The notes beneath the pieces are model-generated. The model searched no databases, was not told the origin of the DNA, and saw only the letters and a program-made list of their open reading frames with translations. From assembly GCA_015063385.1 (NCBI GenBank), contig SVUG01000009.1, positions 1 to 63,862 on the forward strand: DNA of 63,862 nt, written 5' to 3'. Source of the DNA: Oscillospiraceae bacterium. GTDB lineage: Bacteria; Bacillota; Clostridia; Oscillospirales; CAG-272. The position numbers and the translations under genes are program-made. How positions within the stretch are numbered: the first letter of the stretch is position 1; every line of letters begins with the position of its first letter. Below, piece by piece: positions 1,210-58,945 of this stretch.

Positions 1210-2403
1210 ATGTTTGGACTATTCAAGAAAAAGCGAAAACAAAACAACAATGTTGTTTCTACTCAAACAACAGATTTAACCCTATCCTTTGCCGCAGTTC
1301 CTGCAACTGTTGATATAGATGAAAAGCGATTAGTTCAGTTGAAAGATGAGCGAGTATTAAGCTTAGTTTCAAATGTTGCACCTAATATGCTGCAAGTTAT
1401 AAATTCAACAAAAATCGCAAAAGAAGCAAAAGATGCAGTGGACGCCATTTCCGAAACTGGCAAATTGTATCGCGTTGTGATCCCAAAAGGAGCTAAACTT
1501 TTTGATTCAAAAGCTATGATGGGCGCCAAGAGAGCAGGTTTTATTGATGCTGCTGGAAATTTAGGACAAGCAAATCTGGTTTTAGCCGATGGTGCTGACA
1601 ACGCTTTGCAAAATGTCGCAACAAACCAAGTTGTCTCTTCAGCATTTAACGTTGCTTCTATGGTAGTAGGTCAATACTATATGACTCAAATCAACGGTGA
1701 GCTTGATAAGATATCTCAAAGTGTCGATAGAATTTCGAGTTTTCAAAACAATGAGTATTTAAGTAAGATTACCGCCACTATTAAGCAGATTAAGGAAATT
1801 GCCGATTTTCAATCCATTTCTTTGGAAAACGAAGAATTGAGGTTGGAAGAAAAGAGAAAGCTTAACTCTTTGAAGGAAAAAGTCACCGAGTTATTGGATC
1901 AATCAAACCACAGCATTAACAGCCTTATAAGCACTACAGTTTCTGATTGCAAAGAATATCTCGAACAAACGAGAGAAATTGAGATGTGGTATAAATACCA
2001 ACTCGTTTTGCTTGAGTTATTACATCAAATTTGCTCTCTGATACAAGTGTTTAGTTGTGGATTAGAGCCCGAAGAAAAAGTATTCTCAACATTGATTCAA
2101 TGTAAAGATGAGTCCCAAGCAATTTGCGACTTGTTGAGCCATTATCACAAAGAAAAGCAAGAAGCTTTTGAAATCAACATCGAAGACAAAACCATAGGTA
2201 ATCCAAAATGGATTCAAACTCTTGTTGGAGTAATCGGAAAAGAAGATTGGAAGCAACGTAGGCTTCCTGAGACAGATTTTAAAAAGATTAGTTTACAAAT
2301 GAAACCGTTTTCTTTTGATTTTACACCTTCTTTGCCGGGGTACAAAGACGATGTGGTGCTGATTGCGAAAGATGGAGAACTGTATTATCTACCTAATTCA
2401 TAA
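1210..2403 (+). CDS. Hypothetical coiled-coil protein, element cargo
   Basis: 397 aa; I do not recognise the family. The start ATG at 1210 follows AAGGAG at a suitable distance and a good promoter. The N-terminus is basic (MFGLFKKKRKQ). Residues ~95-160 are rich in Gly/Ala and end in a moderately hydrophobic stretch (SAFNVASMVVGQYYM) that might contact membrane. Residues ~165-240 are a charged heptad-like region predicted to form a coiled coil. There is no enzyme motif I can name. It is the first gene inside the element and is transcribed away from attL, a usual position for cargo. A defence or maintenance role is possible but unsupported. Confidence 0.75.
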   Translation: MFGLFKKKRKQNNNVVSTQTTDLTLSFAAVPATVDIDEKRLVQLKDERVLSLVSNVAPNMLQVINSTKIAKEAKDAVDAISETGKLYRVVIPKGAKLFDSKAMMGAKRAGFIDAAGNLGQANLVLADGADNALQNVATNQVVSSAFNVASMVVGQYYMTQINGELDKISQSVDRISSFQNNEYLSKITATIKQIKEIADFQSISLENEELRLEEKRKLNSLKEKVTELLDQSNHSINSLISTTVSDCKEYLEQTREIEMWYKYQLVLLELLHQICSLIQVFSCGLEPEEKVFSTLIQCKDESQAICDLLSHYHKEKQEAFEINIEDKTIGNPKWIQTLVGVIGKEDWKQRRLPETDFKKISLQMKPFSFDFTPSLPGYKDDVVLIAKDGELYYLPNS

Positions 2404-30542: not shown

Positions 30543-33887
<3,345 letters not shown>

Positions 33888-40740: not shown

Positions 40741-40985
40741 AAAAAATCCCAAGCAACGCACAAACGCTGCTTGGGACGAAAATCCGTGTTACCACCCAAA
40801 TTCAGAGCAAAAAGCTCCCTCGTTTACGCATATAACGGTGCTACCGTCGGGGTCTAATAAGCAAAACGCTGTTCTTCCCGAAAACTGCGAGGGCTACCTT
40901 CAGACGTTTCCTTTACGTGCTCACACCAACCGCACGCTCTCTTTAAAAGTCGGACGCCGTACTCCTCCCTCGGAAATACAGTAAA
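40741..40985 (-). promoter_or_regulatory. T-box riboswitch (valine)
   Basis: Minus-strand leader of valS. Stem I base GAGGG/CCCTC and distal-loop sequence AGAGAGC..GCGGTTGGTGTGAGC are present. The likely specifier codon GTA (Val) is at 40895-40897 following GAAG. The conserved T-box GGGTGGTAACACGG is at 40784-40797. The terminator stem CCCAAGCA...TGCTTGGG (40748-40775) with a T run ends at 40741. Uncharged tRNA-Val should favour antitermination. Confidence 0.93.
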
Positions 40986-44784: not shown

Positions 44785-45591
44785 ATGGCTAACACACAGA
44801 TTTTCAATCTTGAAGGTAAGGTTGCACTTATTACCGGTGCTTCCTACGGCATTGGCTACGCTATCGCAAAAGGTCTTGCAGCAGCGGGCGCAAAGATAGT
44901 TTTTAACGACATCAAGCAGGAGTTTGTTGACAAGGGACTTGCCTCCTACAAGGCTGACGGCATTGACGCTACCGGCTACGTTTGCGACGTCACCGATGAG
45001 GACGCTGTTAACGAACTTGTTGCAAAGATTGAAAAGGAAGTCGGCGTAATCGACATTCTCGTAAACAATGCGGGTATTATCAAGAGAATTCCTATGATTG
45101 AAATGAAGGCAGAGGAGTTCCGTCAGGTTATCGACGTTGACCTCAACGCTCCTTTCATCGTTTCCAAGGCAGTTCTTCCTTCTATGATTAAGCAGAGAAG
45201 CGGTAAGATTATAAACATCTGCTCTATGATGAGTGAGTTCGGTCGTGAGACCGTTTCAGCATATGCGTCTGCAAAGGGTGGTCTTAAGATGCTTACCAGA
45301 AATATTGCATCCGAGTACGGTCAGTACAACATCCAGTGCAACGGCATCGGCCCCGGCTACATAGCTACCCCCCAGACCGCACCCCTCCGTGAGCCTCAGG
45401 CAGACGGCTCGAAGCATCCCTTCGATAGCTTCATCACCGATACCAAGACTCCCGCAGGCCGTTGGGGCAATCCCGAGGACCTCGCAGGCCCTGCAGTATT
45501 CCTTGCATCCGAGGCATCCGACTTTGTAAATGGTCAGATACTCTACGTTGACGGTGGAATACAGGCTTACTTCGGCAAGCAGCCCTCCTAA
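44785..45591 (+). CDS. kduD: 2-dehydro-3-deoxy-D-gluconate 5-dehydrogenase (KduD-like SDR)
   Basis: 268 aa short-chain dehydrogenase. Cofactor motif TGASYGIG (~18-25), NNAG, catalytic Ser in CSMMSEFG and YASAKGG (Tyr/Lys). It reduces 2,5-diketo-3-deoxygluconate to KDG with NAD(P)H, the step after KduI. Its position 21 nt after kduI supports the specific assignment. AAGGAG precedes the ATG. Confidence 0.92.
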   Translation: MANTQIFNLEGKVALITGASYGIGYAIAKGLAAAGAKIVFNDIKQEFVDKGLASYKADGIDATGYVCDVTDEDAVNELVAKIEKEVGVIDILVNNAGIIKRIPMIEMKAEEFRQVIDVDLNAPFIVSKAVLPSMIKQRSGKIINICSMMSEFGRETVSAYASAKGGLKMLTRNIASEYGQYNIQCNGIGPGYIATPQTAPLREPQADGSKHPFDSFITDTKTPAGRWGNPEDLAGPAVFLASEASDFVNGQILYVDGGIQAYFGKQPS

Positions 45592-45718
45592 GAGGTATAA
45601 ATTGCGCAATACTGCGTTATCACTTCGACTCAGGAAGCTCGACATAGGCAACTATGCCATCGCTTCCGTCGCTCGTGATGCCTTGTTTTGCACAATTTCT
45701 ACTCTCTTAGATTCCTAA
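45586..45718 (+). repeat. Palindromic repeat, copy A
   Basis: Imperfect hairpin of ~125 bp. Outer arms at 45591-45625 (starts TAAGAGGTATAAATTGCGCA) and 45676-45711 (ends in TCTACTCTCTTA) are complementary over ~30 bp. Inner arms GAAGC/GCTTC and a central CATAGGCAACTATG stem complete it. It begins at the kduD stop codon. Confidence 0.8.
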
Positions 45719-45836
45719 ACGGTAAAAATCGTCGTATACGTCGTTAAAGGCATCGACTCGGGAGAGTTGTCGTAGGCAACTACGCCTTCCTCCCCCTCGC
45801 TCGCCTTGCCTTGTCTACGGCAATTTTTCCTCGTTT
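45719..45836 (+). repeat. Palindromic repeat, copy B
   Basis: Same architecture: GGTAAAAATCGTCGTATACG on the left pairs with CTACGGCAATTTTTCC on the right. Centre CGTAGGCAACTACG. Confidence 0.78.
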
Positions 45837-45959
45837 ATAAGAGGTATAAAACGCCCAATACGTCGTTGCTCCTGTGATACTCGGCTCGGAGTAGGTAATT
45901 ACACCATCGCCTGCGTTTCTCGGTGCGCCTCGTCTTAGGCGTTTTCTCCTCTCTTAGAC
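45837..45959 (+). repeat. Palindromic repeat, copy C
   Basis: TAAGAGGTATAAAACGCCCA on the left pairs with TTAGGCGTTTTCTCCTCTCT on the right. Centre GTAGGTAATTAC. Confidence 0.78.
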
Positions 45960-46004
45960 TTTTGGAGGTAAAAATTACGCAAAACTGCGTTATCACTTGT
46001 AGTT
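45960..46004 (+). repeat. Palindromic repeat, left-arm fragment D
   Basis: GGAGGTAAAAATTACGCAAA then ACTGCGTTATCAC, matching the left arm of copy A. The remainder is missing. The GH88 gene starts at 46025. Confidence 0.7.
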
Positions 46005-52546: not shown

Positions 52547-53731
52547 ATGAAATACATAGATTTTCAGGGTAAAAAGATTTCTATGCTCGGCTACGGTGCG
52601 ATGCGACTGCCGACTGTGGGCAAGGACTCGCAGATTGATTATGCCGAGACCGAGCGCCTTTTTGACCGCGCGATAGATGCAGGAATCAACTATTTTGATA
52701 CTGCCTACCCCTATCACGGTGGCAATTCAGAGATTGTCGTAGGTAAAATTCTCTCAAAATATCCCCGCGAGAGCTATTATATCGCGACCAAATATCCGGG
52801 ACATCAGATTTTGCCAGATTACAACCCAGCTGCCATTTTTGAGGACCAGCTTAAAAAATGCGGTGTTGAGTATTTTGACTTTTATCTTCTTCACAACGTT
52901 TGCGAGACCTCATTACCGGTATATCTTGATAAATCGCTTGGTATAATTGACTATTTCCTTGAGCAAAAGAGGCTTGGAAGAATAAAGCACCTCGGCTTCT
53001 CGACTCATGGCTCTCCTGAAAACATGAGCGAATTCCTTGATGCCGCAGGCGAGCATATGGAATTTTGCCAGATTCAGCTCAATTACCTTGACTGGACACT
53101 TCAGCGTGCAGAAGAAAAATGCCGCTTGCTTGAAAAATGGGAAATTCCCGTCTGGGTAATGGAGCCTGTGCGAGGCGGCAAGCTTGTAAATAAGCTGCCT
53201 GACGGTGCAAAAGAGAAGCTTCGCTCCTTACGTCCCGATGAAAGCCTTGCTTCCTGGTGCTTCCGCTGGCTTACCGGACTCTCTAATATGGGCGTTATTC
53301 TCAGCGGTATGTCAAACATGGAGCAGCTTGAAGATAATATAAAAACCTTTTCCACCGAAAAGCCGCTTACCGATGCCGAGACTGCAGTGCTTTACGAGAT
53401 TGCCGACGGACTCAAGAGCAGCGTCCCCTGTACGAGCTGTGGCTATTGCCTCAAGAGCTGCCCGATGGAGTTAAATATCCCGATGCTGCTTGAGGTTTAC
53501 AACGACCTCTCGTATGCTCCGGGTGTAAACTCTGCATCAAAAATCGAATTTTTGCCTGAGAACAAGCAACCCACCGCCTGCATTGCATGCTCAAGATGTG
53601 TCAAGGCTTGCCCCCAAAATATAGATATTCCGCTTACGCTTATAAAGCTTTCAAAAATGCTTAAGGACATTCCCTCCTGGCGCAAAATTTGCGAGGAGCG
53701 TGCCGCTGCGGCAGAGAAGACGAAAAAGTAA
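52547..53731 (+). CDS. Aldo/keto reductase with ferredoxin-type Fe-S domain
   Basis: 394 aa. AKR (TIM barrel) domain at ~1-280 with catalytic tetrad residues in INYFDTAYPYHGG (Asp, Tyr), IATKYPGH (Lys) and FYLLHNV (His). The C-terminal domain carries two 4Fe-4S motifs, CTSCGYCLKSCP and CIACSRCVKACP. This architecture is common in anaerobes; the Fe-S clusters may deliver electrons instead of free NADPH. Physiological substrate unknown. Confidence 0.92.
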   Translation: MKYIDFQGKKISMLGYGAMRLPTVGKDSQIDYAETERLFDRAIDAGINYFDTAYPYHGGNSEIVVGKILSKYPRESYYIATKYPGHQILPDYNPAAIFEDQLKKCGVEYFDFYLLHNVCETSLPVYLDKSLGIIDYFLEQKRLGRIKHLGFSTHGSPENMSEFLDAAGEHMEFCQIQLNYLDWTLQRAEEKCRLLEKWEIPVWVMEPVRGGKLVNKLPDGAKEKLRSLRPDESLASWCFRWLTGLSNMGVILSGMSNMEQLEDNIKTFSTEKPLTDAETAVLYEIADGLKSSVPCTSCGYCLKSCPMELNIPMLLEVYNDLSYAPGVNSASKIEFLPENKQPTACIACSRCVKACPQNIDIPLTLIKLSKMLKDIPSWRKICEERAAAAEKTKK

Positions 53732-53732
53732 T

Positions 53733-53761
53733 AAAAAAACGCCCAATCGGGCGTTTTTTTA
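53733..53761. terminator. Bidirectional terminator
   Basis: AAAAACGCCC and GGGCGTTTTT arms; serves the AKR and antiporter genes, which converge. Confidence 0.88.
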
Positions 53762-55123
53762 TTACTTTGTTTCGCGTCCTGCGCGGATAAGCTTTTTGAT
53801 TTCCTCCTTGATGGCAGTACGGCGGAAATGTCTTTCCTTCTTATGCTCGGGCATATTTTTAACGTGCGCGTGTCTTGCGCTTACACTTTCACCGAGTTTA
53901 ATATCTCCGGCCTTTACAAGTGCCATTTTAGTAAGAGCAGGGCCAACGAGCTCGTAAATGAGCACGGCAAAGAGGGTGATGGTAGCAATCATTTCACCAA
54001 TGTCACCGAACTCCTTTGCCTTCATAGCCATACCGAGCGCAACGCCTGCCTGCGGAAGCAGGGTGATACCGAGATACTTGACGATGTTGTCGTCACATTT
54101 TGCAATCTTTGCACTTACGAATGCACCGGTGCATTTACCGATTGAGCGAGATATGATGTAAATGATGCCGACCAGTACCATAAGAAGATTCGAAAATACA
54201 GAGAGCTCCAGCTCCGCGCCTGACAGCACGAAGAAGAGGATAAAGAGCGGTGCTGTCCAGCGGTCAACTCTCTCCATAAGCTCCTCTGAGAAGTCGCAAA
54301 TATTGCAGAATATAGTTCCGAGCATCATAAGAGTCAAAAGAGAGGAGAATGCGATATGTACTTCACCGACCGTGAACGTCAGCTTTGAAAGAGCAATAGT
54401 CATCAGCACGAATGCGATGGAAACCGAAAGTCTCTTCGAGCGCGAGTGGAAGAATCTCTCGCAAATATGGAAGAGAACACCCATAATCGCACCGAGCAGG
54501 AGAGAGAGCGCTACCTCGAGCACAGGTTCGAGAATAACCGATTTGATGTTAACCGAGCCAGAGTTCATAGCTCTTGCAACACCGAACGAGATAGCAAAGA
54601 GAATAAGTCCCACTGCATCGTCGAGTGCAACTACGGGAAGGAGAATGTCGGTGACAGGGCCCTTCGCCTTATACTGCTTAACGACCATAAGCGTTGCCGC
54701 AGGTGCAGTTGCTGCTGCAATAGCACCAAGCACGATTGCTGCCTCCATTGTCAGTACGTTAGGCATGGCGAAATACAGTCCAATCAGCACGGCATCAACA
54801 ATCAGTGTAGTAATTACAGCCTGCAAAATTCCTATAATAGTTGCTTGCTTGCCGATTTTTTTAAGCTGGGAGAGTCTGAACTCGTTTCCAATAGAGAATG
54901 CGATAAATCCAAGAGCAACGTCACAAATAATTGAGTATGACTCTACGTCAGCTCGGCTAATGAAACCGACTCCTTTAATGCCGAGCGAGCCGAGCAGATA
55001 CGGACCCACTAGGATTCCTGCAACTAGATATGCAGTCACGGCGGGAAGCTTCAAAAGCTTAGCAAGCCTTGAAAGCAGGAGTCCTGCAATAAGAGAAATA
55101 GATAAACAAAGCAGTGATTCCAT
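53762..55123 (-). CDS. CPA2-type cation:proton antiporter
   Basis: 453 aa from the ATG at 55123. Twelve to thirteen hydrophobic segments; the N-terminal LPAVTAYLVAGILVGPYLLG and the transport motif DDAVGLILFAIS (Asp pair at ~185) mark the Na+/H+ exchanger (KefB/NapA) family. There is no C-terminal TrkA-N or TrkA-C domain; the cytosolic tail is short and basic. Monovalent cation/H+ exchange at the cytoplasmic membrane. Confidence 0.9.
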   Translation of the reverse strand: MESLLCLSISLIAGLLLSRLAKLLKLPAVTAYLVAGILVGPYLLGSLGIKGVGFISRADVESYSIICDVALGFIAFSIGNEFRLSQLKKIGKQATIIGILQAVITTLIVDAVLIGLYFAMPNVLTMEAAIVLGAIAAATAPAATLMVVKQYKAKGPVTDILLPVVALDDAVGLILFAISFGVARAMNSGSVNIKSVILEPVLEVALSLLLGAIMGVLFHICERFFHSRSKRLSVSIAFVLMTIALSKLTFTVGEVHIAFSSLLTLMMLGTIFCNICDFSEELMERVDRWTAPLFILFFVLSGAELELSVFSNLLMVLVGIIYIISRSIGKCTGAFVSAKIAKCDDNIVKYLGITLLPQAGVALGMAMKAKEFGDIGEMIATITLFAVLIYELVGPALTKMALVKAGDIKLGESVSARHAHVKNMPEHKKERHFRRTAIKEEIKKLIRAGRETK

Positions 55124-55152
55124 AGTTGTTTCTTCTTTCAAAAAATATTTAT

Positions 55153-55195
55153 TAACAGTAAAGTATTGTAGCACTACACCGGTAAAAAGTCAAGT
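55153..55195 (-). promoter_or_regulatory. Promoter of the antiporter gene
   Basis: Minus strand TTGACT, 17 nt, TACAAT. Confidence 0.65.
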
Positions 55196-57648: not shown

Positions 57649-57701
57649 ATTATATGATTATTATATGTTAATATTAAAAAATGGCTAACCAAGAGGGATA
57701 T

Positions 57702-58784
57702 ATGGAGCAAAAGGACATTAAAATATTAAACGAGCGCGTAAGCACGACTCTTACGACCTCTGACTTTTATTACGAGCTTCCCGAGGAGCTTATCGCACAG
57801 TCCCCGAGCGAGGAGCGTGACGGCTGTCGCCTTATGGTGCTGGAGCGCGAGAGCGGTGAGGTATCACACAAAATCTTCAGAGATATAATTGACTATTTAA
57901 AACCCGAGGATATGCTCGTAGTTAATTCTTCAAAGGTAATACCTGCAAGACTTCTCGGAAAAACCGATAAAACCGGCGGCGATATGGAGCTTCTGCTTCT
58001 TCGCATGCTTGATTCAGGAGAGTGGGAAACCCTAGTGCGTCCGGGAAAGCGCGCCAAGGTGGGCGCTAGCTTTAATTTTTCGGATATTCTTCACGCCACC
58101 GTCACGGGAATTGTTGAAGGTGGAAACCGTACGGTTAAATTCGAGTACGACACCGAAAAATATAAGAATATTTACGAGGTTCTTGATGCTATAGGCAATA
58201 TGCCGCTTCCGCCGTACATAACTAAAAAGCTCGAGAAAAAAGAGGACTATCAGACCGTTTACGCAAAGGAGGAGGGCTCGTCGGCAGCACCTACGGCAGG
58301 ACTCCATTTCACCCCCGAGCTACTCGAGAAAATCAAGGCAAAGGGCGTAGGATACGGCGAGGTCACGCTTCACGTAGGTCTTGGCACGTTTCGTCCTGTA
58401 AAGGTTGATAAAATTGAGGAGCACGAGATGCATGGCGAATTTTTCCACATTGACGAGACCGTTGCAGAGGAAATCAACCGCCGCAGAGCAAACGGCGGCA
58501 GAATAATTGCCGTCGGCACTACCTCCGCCAGAGTTCTTGAGAGCGTTTCAACCGATGACGGCAAGGTGCACGCAATAAAGGGCGAAACGGGCATATTCAT
58601 TTATCCCGGCTACAAATTCAAGGCAGTTGATGCCCTTATAACCAATTTTCACCTTCCCGAATCCACCCTCATAATGCTCGTCAGCGCCCTCGCAGGTAAA
58701 GAAACCGTAATGAAGGCCTATGAAACCGCAGTAGAGGAGAAGTATAGATTCTTTTCCTTTGGCGACGCCATGCTGATTGTATAA
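57702..58784 (+). CDS. queA: S-adenosylmethionine:tRNA ribosyltransferase-isomerase
   Basis: 360 aa from the ATG at 57702, preceded by AGAGGGA; the in-frame ATG at 57681 lacks a ribosome site. It transfers and isomerises the ribose of SAM onto preQ1-tRNA to make epoxyqueuosine. Signatures: [39 protein letters not shown] and [20 protein letters not shown]. The last 13 bases of the gene are duplicated about 125 bp downstream together with a palindromic repeat. Confidence 0.95.
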
Positions 58785-58895
58785 ATTCCGCAATACTTCG
58801 TTAAAGCTTCGACTTGTCGCCCTAGACATAGTCAACTATGCCGTCGGGCTTCGCGCTTGATTTGCCTTGTCTTGCAAAATTTCTCCTAACCGGCA
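58771..58895 (+). repeat. Palindromic repeat, copy E (overlaps the queA end)
   Basis: Same design as the copies at 45.6-46.0 kb: GTATAAATTCCGCAATACTT on the left pairs with the reverse of CTTGTCTTGCAAAATTTCTC. Centre CATAGTCAACTATG. The left arm includes the queA stop codon. Confidence 0.78.
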
Positions 58896-58945
58896 GCTGA
58901 TTGTATAAGTTCCGCAATACTTCGTTAAAGCCTCGACACGGTCAA
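58896..58945 (+). repeat. Palindromic repeat, left-arm fragment F
   Basis: GCTGATTGTATAAGTTCCGC and the following 22 bp repeat 58771-58811 with two mismatches, so the queA 3' end itself was duplicated. It stops in front of the beta-helix lipoprotein gene. Confidence 0.78.

Follow-up and report, generated by a model that had tools for sequence, protein, structure and literature searches.

The outer arms of a family of palindromic repeats at gene 3′ ends in uncultured gut bacteria are locus-specific inverted copies of the host gene end, a feature that an earlier sequence-only reading of one stretch of this DNA had missed. Most of the best-scoring copies lie at stop codons, the arms of most pair over about eight positions and then sharply cease to do so, and the right arm is absent from most of the diverged orthologous sites that read as empty. 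The explanation that we tentatively prefer is that the copies form a large family of non-autonomous, YPAL/ERIC-like mobile hairpins that enter gene ends and copy about 8 nt of the target back.

Copies in the window and spread of the family

The window, a stretch of 63,862 nt that is contig C3 of its own 1.69-Mb assembly (28 contigs, 88% complete), contains four full copies (A, B, C and E) and two fragments (D and F) of a hairpin-forming imperfect palindrome of about 110 nt, all on the sense strand (Table 1). The first array (A, B, C and fragment D) lies between an SDR gene and a downstream GH88-like gene, and the second (E and fragment F) follows queA. With a covariance model (R1) built from 24 copies, including the four from the window, the full copies score 91.9–117.2 bits; the palindromic repeat family at gene 3′ ends described by the sequence-only reading is real, and all window copies do have the same orientation relative to the upstream gene. 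Other parts of that description stood only in part. A start at the stop codon holds for A (TAA in the left arm) and E (TAA in the core) and fails for B, C, D and F, which are tandem followers; B departs from the left arm and C from the centre supposed to be common to all; and of the two upstream genes named, queA is confirmed, while ‘kduD’ passes the NCBIfam cut-off for gluconate 5-dehydrogenase (NF005488) and falls below that for kduD (TIGR01832).

Table 1 Repeat copies, their arms and the upstream genes in the window
Feature	Position	Strand	Remarks
SDR oxidoreductase, gluconate 5-dehydrogenase family (upstream gene of array 1)	44785..45591	+	stop TAA 45589-45591
Copy A left arm CTAAGAG	45588..45594	+	host sequence including stop codon; pairs with 45704-45710
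Copy A core	45594..45703	+	R1 115.8 bits
Copy A right arm CTCTTAG	45704..45710	+	inverted copy of A left arm
Copy B core	45721..45831	+	R1 99.2 bits
Copy B arms TAAACG / CGTTTA	45716-45721 / 45832-45837	+	paired; unlike arms of A
Copy C core	45843..45950	+	R1 91.9 bits
Copy C arms TAAGAG / CTCTTA	45838-45843 / 45951-45956	+	sequence
Fragment D, left end of fourth copy	45965..45998	+	91% identity to A over 34 nt
queA	57681..58784	+	last two codons GTA TAA inside copy E; identity as queA confirmed
Copy E left arm TGCTGATT	58771..58778	+	queA coding end and first core base; 6/8 Watson-Crick pairs
Copy E core	58778..58887	+	R1 117.2 bits; stop TAA 58782-58784 inside core
Copy E right arm AACCGGCA	58888..58895	+	partner of E left arm
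Fragment F, repeated queA tail (GCTGATT) and left end of second copy	58896..58940	+	R1 20.3 bits, E 0.076

Copies E and A share 75.7% identity over 111 nt, a resemblance beyond chance inside the window (blastn E 2e-15). The left-arm pattern recurs, with one mismatch, in fragment F (about 58903-58940). Folded singly as RNA, the copies gave z-scores of −5.85 (A), −4.09 (B), −2.56 (C), −0.02 (E as cut) and 0.37 (D), so copy E alone is without the family hairpin by folding energy. A scan of the first array for intrinsic terminators (a stem with a T-run) returned only two plus-strand stems of 5–6 pairs, inside B and C, by which the copies of this array do not qualify as such terminators. The window also holds a T-box leader (40769-40985, minus strand; 97.7 bits, above the Rfam gathering score), an 876-codon open frame (30555-33185, minus strand) antisense within a 1114-codon ORF (30543-33887, plus strand), and a perfect 20-nt inverted repeat (AAAGTAATAAAAAAACGCCC) that spans both stop codons (53731-53762) of the convergent ORFs 52547-53731 and 53762-55174. 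Several of its native terminators start at a stop codon, and the stems of some include it.

Strong R1 matches in the own assembly are the four window copies only, the next score being 31.5 bits. Because a single-copy DNA search of that genome reached only copies of the first array, a covariance model was needed; left-arm pattern matches on contigs C4, C8, C12 and C22 had no second half downstream and were dropped. The R1 search of the genus (60 genomes, E of 0.01 or better) found matches in 43 genomes, with up to 27 per genome. At the level of the order, 6 of 197 genomes match at 1e-5, the own genome among them, and an exact pattern scan of named GTDB genomes returned four records, three from ‘Clostridia bacterium’ (goat, sheep and water deer gut) and one from ‘Oscillospiraceae bacterium’. 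Two exact patterns had 0 matches each in viral contigs. The covariance-model scan that the sequence-only reading had proposed as a check thus retrieves many copies in relatives, though full copies at only two loci in the own assembly. Rfam searches of the window (at the gathering score) and of nine loci (at E 0.5) returned nothing on the element, which matches no curated RNA family model there.

The copies analysed are the best 150 places in the genus (4 in the window and 146 elsewhere); 96 regions around the 146 were fetched, and together with the window they hold 179 model matches, so that all copy statistics rest on high-scoring copies. One comparison used 161 of the 179 matches, or 154 after removal of duplicates. 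Among the best 150 places, every cluster with more than one R1 copy has all of its copies on a single strand. Matches in genome G240 were left out of the counts, being located in a dispersed repeat of about 510 bp at intrinsic terminators (L199:1372-1884, with copies in L203, L207 and L209). This longer repeat lies between two terminator hairpins that look like the products of a duplication, and it contains a relative of the hairpin described here.

A wider superfamily is indicated by a centre, CTCGNCGTAGNNNNCTACGNC.TCGG, common to the hairpins at the dehydrogenase stop elsewhere and to the weak R1 matches in the own genome. A second model (R2), built from 20 sequences of which two come from the window, places 34 matches in the own genome at E 1; 27 of these, including A and E, reach 0.01 or less, though such E-values are rough. 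After inspection of 29 places, 24 were taken by hand as array-first. The stop codon falls between −9 and +9 in 15 of these 24 (13 of 22 without the two window copies), elsewhere in 7, and 2 have no such ORF; on C14, the two R2 matches of one pair are in opposite orientation. Outside the window, the longest arm match of own-genome R2 copies averages 4.77 against 3.97 for crossed arms (p 0.0006, n=22), and 4.82 against 4.06 (p 0.007) for the 17 copies not used for building R2, a modest effect in that 7 of 22 reach 6 nt.

Stop codons and locus-specific arms

Placement was counted on 98 array-first copies (the 96 regions and the two window arrays), 85 of which have, no more than 150 nt away, the stop codon of a co-directional ORF that is 100 codons or longer. 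The stop codon ends between core positions −10 and +7 in 75 of these 85 arrays; queA contributes 21 of the 75, and without it 54 of 63 arrays are in range. Outside the range are 10 arrays, one of which (L144, at queA) was counted there as a longer ORF was chosen. For 34 of the 75, again with 21 at queA, the stop is a TAA within the element's own GNATAAATT. The 82 upstream proteins, 21 of them QueA, fall into 40 groups. In 35 of these groups at least one member is in range, in 34 every member is, and 14 have a member at +7. Read by eye, and with queA and the dehydrogenase set apart, these groups look like ordinary housekeeping genes. An apparent single family of upstream genes of about 530 aa was discarded, these being ORFs cut by the 1600-nt flank.

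The flanks next to the core differ by locus, yet in most array-first copies they pair with each other, the left arm being the gene's own end and hence host sequence; by eye, the arms share no fixed bases across loci. Arms were counted in 94 array-first and 69 inner copies of the 179 matches, the other 16 having no long enough core or flank. Position by position, the Watson-Crick fraction in the 94 array-first copies is.68,.70,.71,.89,.81,.88,.76 and.70, then.33,.20,.13 and.23; in the 70 non-queA copies it is.60,.61,.79,.87,.77,.86,.69 and.61, then.24,.23,.14 and.21. When each of the 31 single-linkage arm clusters (the largest of 35 and 13) is represented by one copy, the values are.57,.61,.72,.81,.75,.88,.69 and.60, then.28, compared with.22–.34 for shuffled arm partners, and each of the eight positions exceeds the highest of 300 shuffles. 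At least six of the eight pairs are formed in 69 of the 94 first copies (23 of 24 at queA and 46 of 70 elsewhere) and fewer than six in 25; pairing is less frequent in inner tandem copies, of which 24 of 69 reach six of eight. Arm pairing rises with core similarity to the nearest copy elsewhere (rho 0.33, p 0.005, n=70 non-queA copies), the trend expected of arms that start out complete and decay with time.

The two halves of the 110-nt core covary as an imperfect palindrome in which T.C mismatches and one T.G pair are conserved, as is a bulge at the last core base; at one foot the bottom strand reads GNAG, N being free but mostly paired. In alignment A4 (88 copies, 84 of the rows distinct), paired cells make up 93.1%, compared with 78.3% after shuffling and no more than 47% when the halves are slid, a figure favoured by the fitting of A4 to the model structure. 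That the two halves drift together, as the sequence-only reading had it, is borne out by 314 cells changed on both sides, compared with 76 (sd 10) in shuffles.

Such strong covariation, with its conserved U.G pair, together with the co-directional placement at stop codons, would also suit a functional 3′ RNA hairpin under selection, acting as an mRNA stabiliser or in ribosome stalling or processing, in which arm pairing is favoured because it sets the base of the stem at the stop codon. This is the main rival explanation, close to the 3′-end RNA stabiliser of the earlier reading, and we consider it rather unlikely. At queA, where four copies have changed left arms, a matching right arm is present in L070, L131 and L144 and absent in L124, and such matched changes (three of four) also fit selection for pairing; several native terminators in the window have their start at a stop codon, which points the same way, and ribosome stalling is described for REPs of E. 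coli that lie no more than 15 nt from a stop codon (PMC12306157). A selected RNA, however, should tolerate G.U far more readily than A.C, and the excess of G.U expected of it is missing from the mismatches of core and arms alike. The core has 114 G.T and 115 A.C among 4819 cells (A4 and A5, the fixed T.G pair left out), counts in which copies are related, events are not independent and single pairs lean either way. The eight arm positions have 33 and 35 among 752 cells, 13 of the 35 A.C being in queA copies and mostly one shared variant, and the seven flank positions left after removal of queA and the core base have 17 and 19. This near equality weakens the RNA reading and argues for a DNA hairpin. 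Further against RNA selection, many pairs in A4 are G-C in some copies and A-U in others but seldom G.U (which two pairs do show), the arms stop sharply after eight positions, inner tandem copies are often unpaired, and arm pairing declines as cores diverge.

Origin of the arms and probable movement of the element

Under the preferred model of mobile hairpins, the element would enter as, or via, a single-stranded DNA hairpin at a break or nick in the gene end. Its 5′ end would be joined to the gene end, with the stem holding the 3′ end beside that same gene end, and snap-back extension of the 3′ end by copying about 8 nt of the gene end would then lengthen the stem into coding sequence. The element's ATAA often supplies the stop codon, so that the gene survives. 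The preference for stop codons could reflect how accessible gene ends are when translation finishes, or the loss by selection of copies placed elsewhere, and the hairpin, once transcribed, probably has a secondary effect on the 3′ ends of mRNAs.

If the right arm is written at insertion, orthologous sites that never received the element should lack it; as the closest queA match between species is 79%, leaving no filled/empty pair of close relatives, this origin of the right arm (X′) is inferred from diverged orthologues. Empty status was read by eye, across diverged species rather than strain pairs. Five of 30 queA loci read as empty (G021, G066, G053, G065 and G041), with gene ends encoding Met-Leu/Phe-Ile followed, in the same genome order, by AAA TGA, AAG TAA, AAA TAA, AAA TAA and GAA TAA. 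An inverted copy of the coding end was not found close by in any of these five; G065 has a 9-nt inverted match of A/T only, 170 nt away, and the 9-nt match in G053 is a terminator stem. An automatic inverted-match test at queA does not separate filled from empty loci, many filled arms being mismatched and scoring 5–7 nt. At the dehydrogenase, 11 orthologues read as empty, and the longest inverted match is 4–6 nt in nine of them (G043, G056, G050, G014, G071, G009, G048, G064 and G070), 7 nt in G016 and 9 nt in G054. Among the other 18 scored orthologues, 12 have an inverted match of 7–10 nt placed 82–112 nt downstream, and six (G021, G007, G052, G073, G013 and G012) have one of 5–6 nt. The dehydrogenase stop codon of other genomes carries different hairpins with arms of their own, for example TTTTTTCG/CGAAAAAA, TTAATCG/CGATTAA and ATTTTTAGCG/CGCTAAAAAT.

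These orthologues bear on a second alternative, that the element was inserted inside a pre-existing dyad symmetry such as a terminator stem, the arms being the two halves of the old stem. Precedents exist, in that targets of the 168-bp palindromic repeat YPAL span or adjoin dyad symmetry (PMC2229807), some REPs are described as located inside palindromes (PMC3733652), and some native terminator stems of the window include the stop codon. We nevertheless find this account improbable: the inverted copy is missing at the five empty-read queA ends, nine of 11 empty-read dehydrogenase ends have only the short matches given above, the right-arm flanks show by eye no regular T-run after the arm, and the displaced native end at locus L107 has no right arm.

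Could the right arm instead be a guide that the element carries and that finds its target by base complementarity, in the manner of RNA-guided recombinases or of EBS/IBS pairing in introns? A length near eight and the recurrence of the same queA-matching arm with several core subfamilies would fit, although the 31 arm clusters would require a new guide per site even where some cores are 88–93% alike. In 16 pairs of copies at different sites, several of which share a copy, the cores are at least 88% alike and the arms unlike, and in 11 of the 16 both copies form at least six of eight arm pairs. A guide also leaves the stop codons unexplained and comes with no candidate enzyme, and we give it only a small chance of being right. 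Concerted change at the DNA level and inverted flank copies could also be produced by template switching during replication, which would correct the palindrome and extend its arms into the flank with neither mobility nor selection; foldback copies of about 5–34 bp are reported at yeast breaks (PMC11724301). We judge it very unlikely, because the conserved T.C and T.G mismatches persist uncorrected in nearly every copy, and because pairing beyond the eighth position shows no gradual tail-off. The same mismatches show that the core is not re-copied from one arm, a point that counts against the preferred mobile-hairpin model.

Movement itself is suggested by core similarity. Cores at other loci and in other species are 74–89% identical to window copy E, against 67–79% for queA matches between species, a comparison that leans towards the element as BLAST shows the best-conserved pieces. 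Together with the 43 of 60 genus genomes and the 40 upstream protein groups, these values support the MITE-like spread supposed by the sequence-only reading: the family is short, non-coding, multicopy and dispersed. Tandem units, commonly 120–130 nt, arise locally. In a test of 89 arrays, the gene tail recurs in direct orientation beyond the array in 7 at 12 or more of 16 positions, against 0 of 89 for shuffled queries. Several of the 7 are weak, the clearest being L124, where the repeated queA tail has a native-looking GAA TAA end, and L107, where the repeated tail is CTTTTCGAGGAATAA. At L067 (genome G043), an older queA tail and another repeat lie beyond the element, just as that repeat adjoins queA in G072 and G056. 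A direct tail repeat beyond a few arrays would fit a staggered cut (L-X-E-X′-spacer-X-R).

L067, L175 and L185 have a different repeat after queA, made of small hairpins joined by ATGAATTG. In G072 and G056 it abuts the queA stop, and in G043 it lies on the far side of the element; there, the gene tail runs straight into an inverted copy of itself of about 12 nt. In L189 (G041), an AT-rich repeat (ATGAAGAATGAAAAATGAAG) after queA lies between direct repeats of the queA tail, stop codon included. Near the element copy of L107, inside another gene-end repeat, are two matches to Gut-1 RNA (RF01706; L107:1858-1935, plus strand, and 1999-2080, minus strand).

The search for an enzyme covered Y1_Tnp, which is over the cut-off in 15 of the 60 genomes, and RVT_1, which is in 9 of 60. 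Neither tracks copy number across the 60 genomes, so that no mobilising enzyme was found among these two, and an RVT_1 reverse transcriptase as mobiliser is not supported. RVT_1 was not found in G004, G070 and G073, and neither domain was found in G013, G018, G052 and G054 (15–16 copies each), which is weak evidence as these assemblies are incomplete. Y1_Tnp is present in the own genome (one gene), G004 (24 copies) and G073 (14 copies, two genes). Mobilisation by a RAYT/IS200-like transposase, which the earlier reading had entertained, therefore does not hold up well, and REP/BIME elements moved by RAYT are barely credible as an explanation. In their favour are the palindromes at gene ends and the three Y1_Tnp-bearing genomes just named; against them stand the scarcity of Y1_Tnp, which was not found in the four copy-rich but incomplete assemblies, the length of 110 nt and the lack of a fixed GTAG tag, the corresponding base being free and mostly paired.

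In a more specific form of the mobile-hairpin model, which we regard as rather unlikely, the end of the element would gain about 8 nt of inverted target sequence whenever it inserts at a stop codon, so that the hairpin of every new copy reaches into the host gene. Stops would be chosen via a step linked to translation or to mRNA ends, and the enzyme would be neither a RAYT nor an RVT_1 reverse transcriptase.

Known gene-end repeats and significance

Imperfect palindromes of about 120 nt at gene 3′ ends, in one orientation and with paired outer boxes (GTTRRRY / RYYYAAC), are familiar from integron attC sites and VCRs. By contrast, the genes here look unlinked and housekeeping, the arms have no fixed GTT, and the left arm is the host gene end. 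A closer parallel is YPAL, which De Gregorio reportedly described in 2006 as inserting close to stop codons, as 75 of 85 arrays do here. As described, YPAL (RU-2) of Yersinia resembles the element in being a palindromic mobile repeat linked to upstream genes, and it has direct target duplications of 3–26 bp (PMC2229807). The present element differs in being shorter and in that its target dyad is a locus-specific inverted host copy with a sharp limit of eight positions, absent in most empty-read orthologues. ERIC (also IRU or RU-1) is described as a repeat of 127 bp that forms long stem-loops, has TA at its ends, duplicates its target and is co-transcribed with genes, its orientation mattering for mRNA stability (PMC2229807); here, fixed TA ends are lacking and the core flanks vary by locus, which by description sets the two apart. 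REP and BIME families (GTAG, CGTC) are likewise palindromes next to gene ends, and GTAG REPs are described as often providing the stop codon TAG (PMC3733652), as ATAA often does here; those elements, however, are 20–40 bp long with a fixed tag and a RAYT, whereas the present one has 110 nt, no tag and a RAYT distribution unrelated to copy number. On these descriptions, the element would work like YPAL and ERIC and is best filed as a member of neither. No description of locus-specific inverted arms at stop codons was found among the open-licence papers searched, a weak guide to what is in print.

Gene-end palindromic repeats have been known for decades, and in most cases both the choice of gene ends and the mode of movement remain open. 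In the present family, the boundary between element and host is readable at many unrelated genes, and the inverted host copy, with its nearly fixed length, is a trace of the mechanism of a kind that ordinary direct target duplications do not leave. Confirmation would point to snap-back copying by a hairpin at the gene end, and to a novel enzyme. Should selection instead explain the arms, the family would offer a large natural collection of hairpins with the stop codon enclosed in their base.
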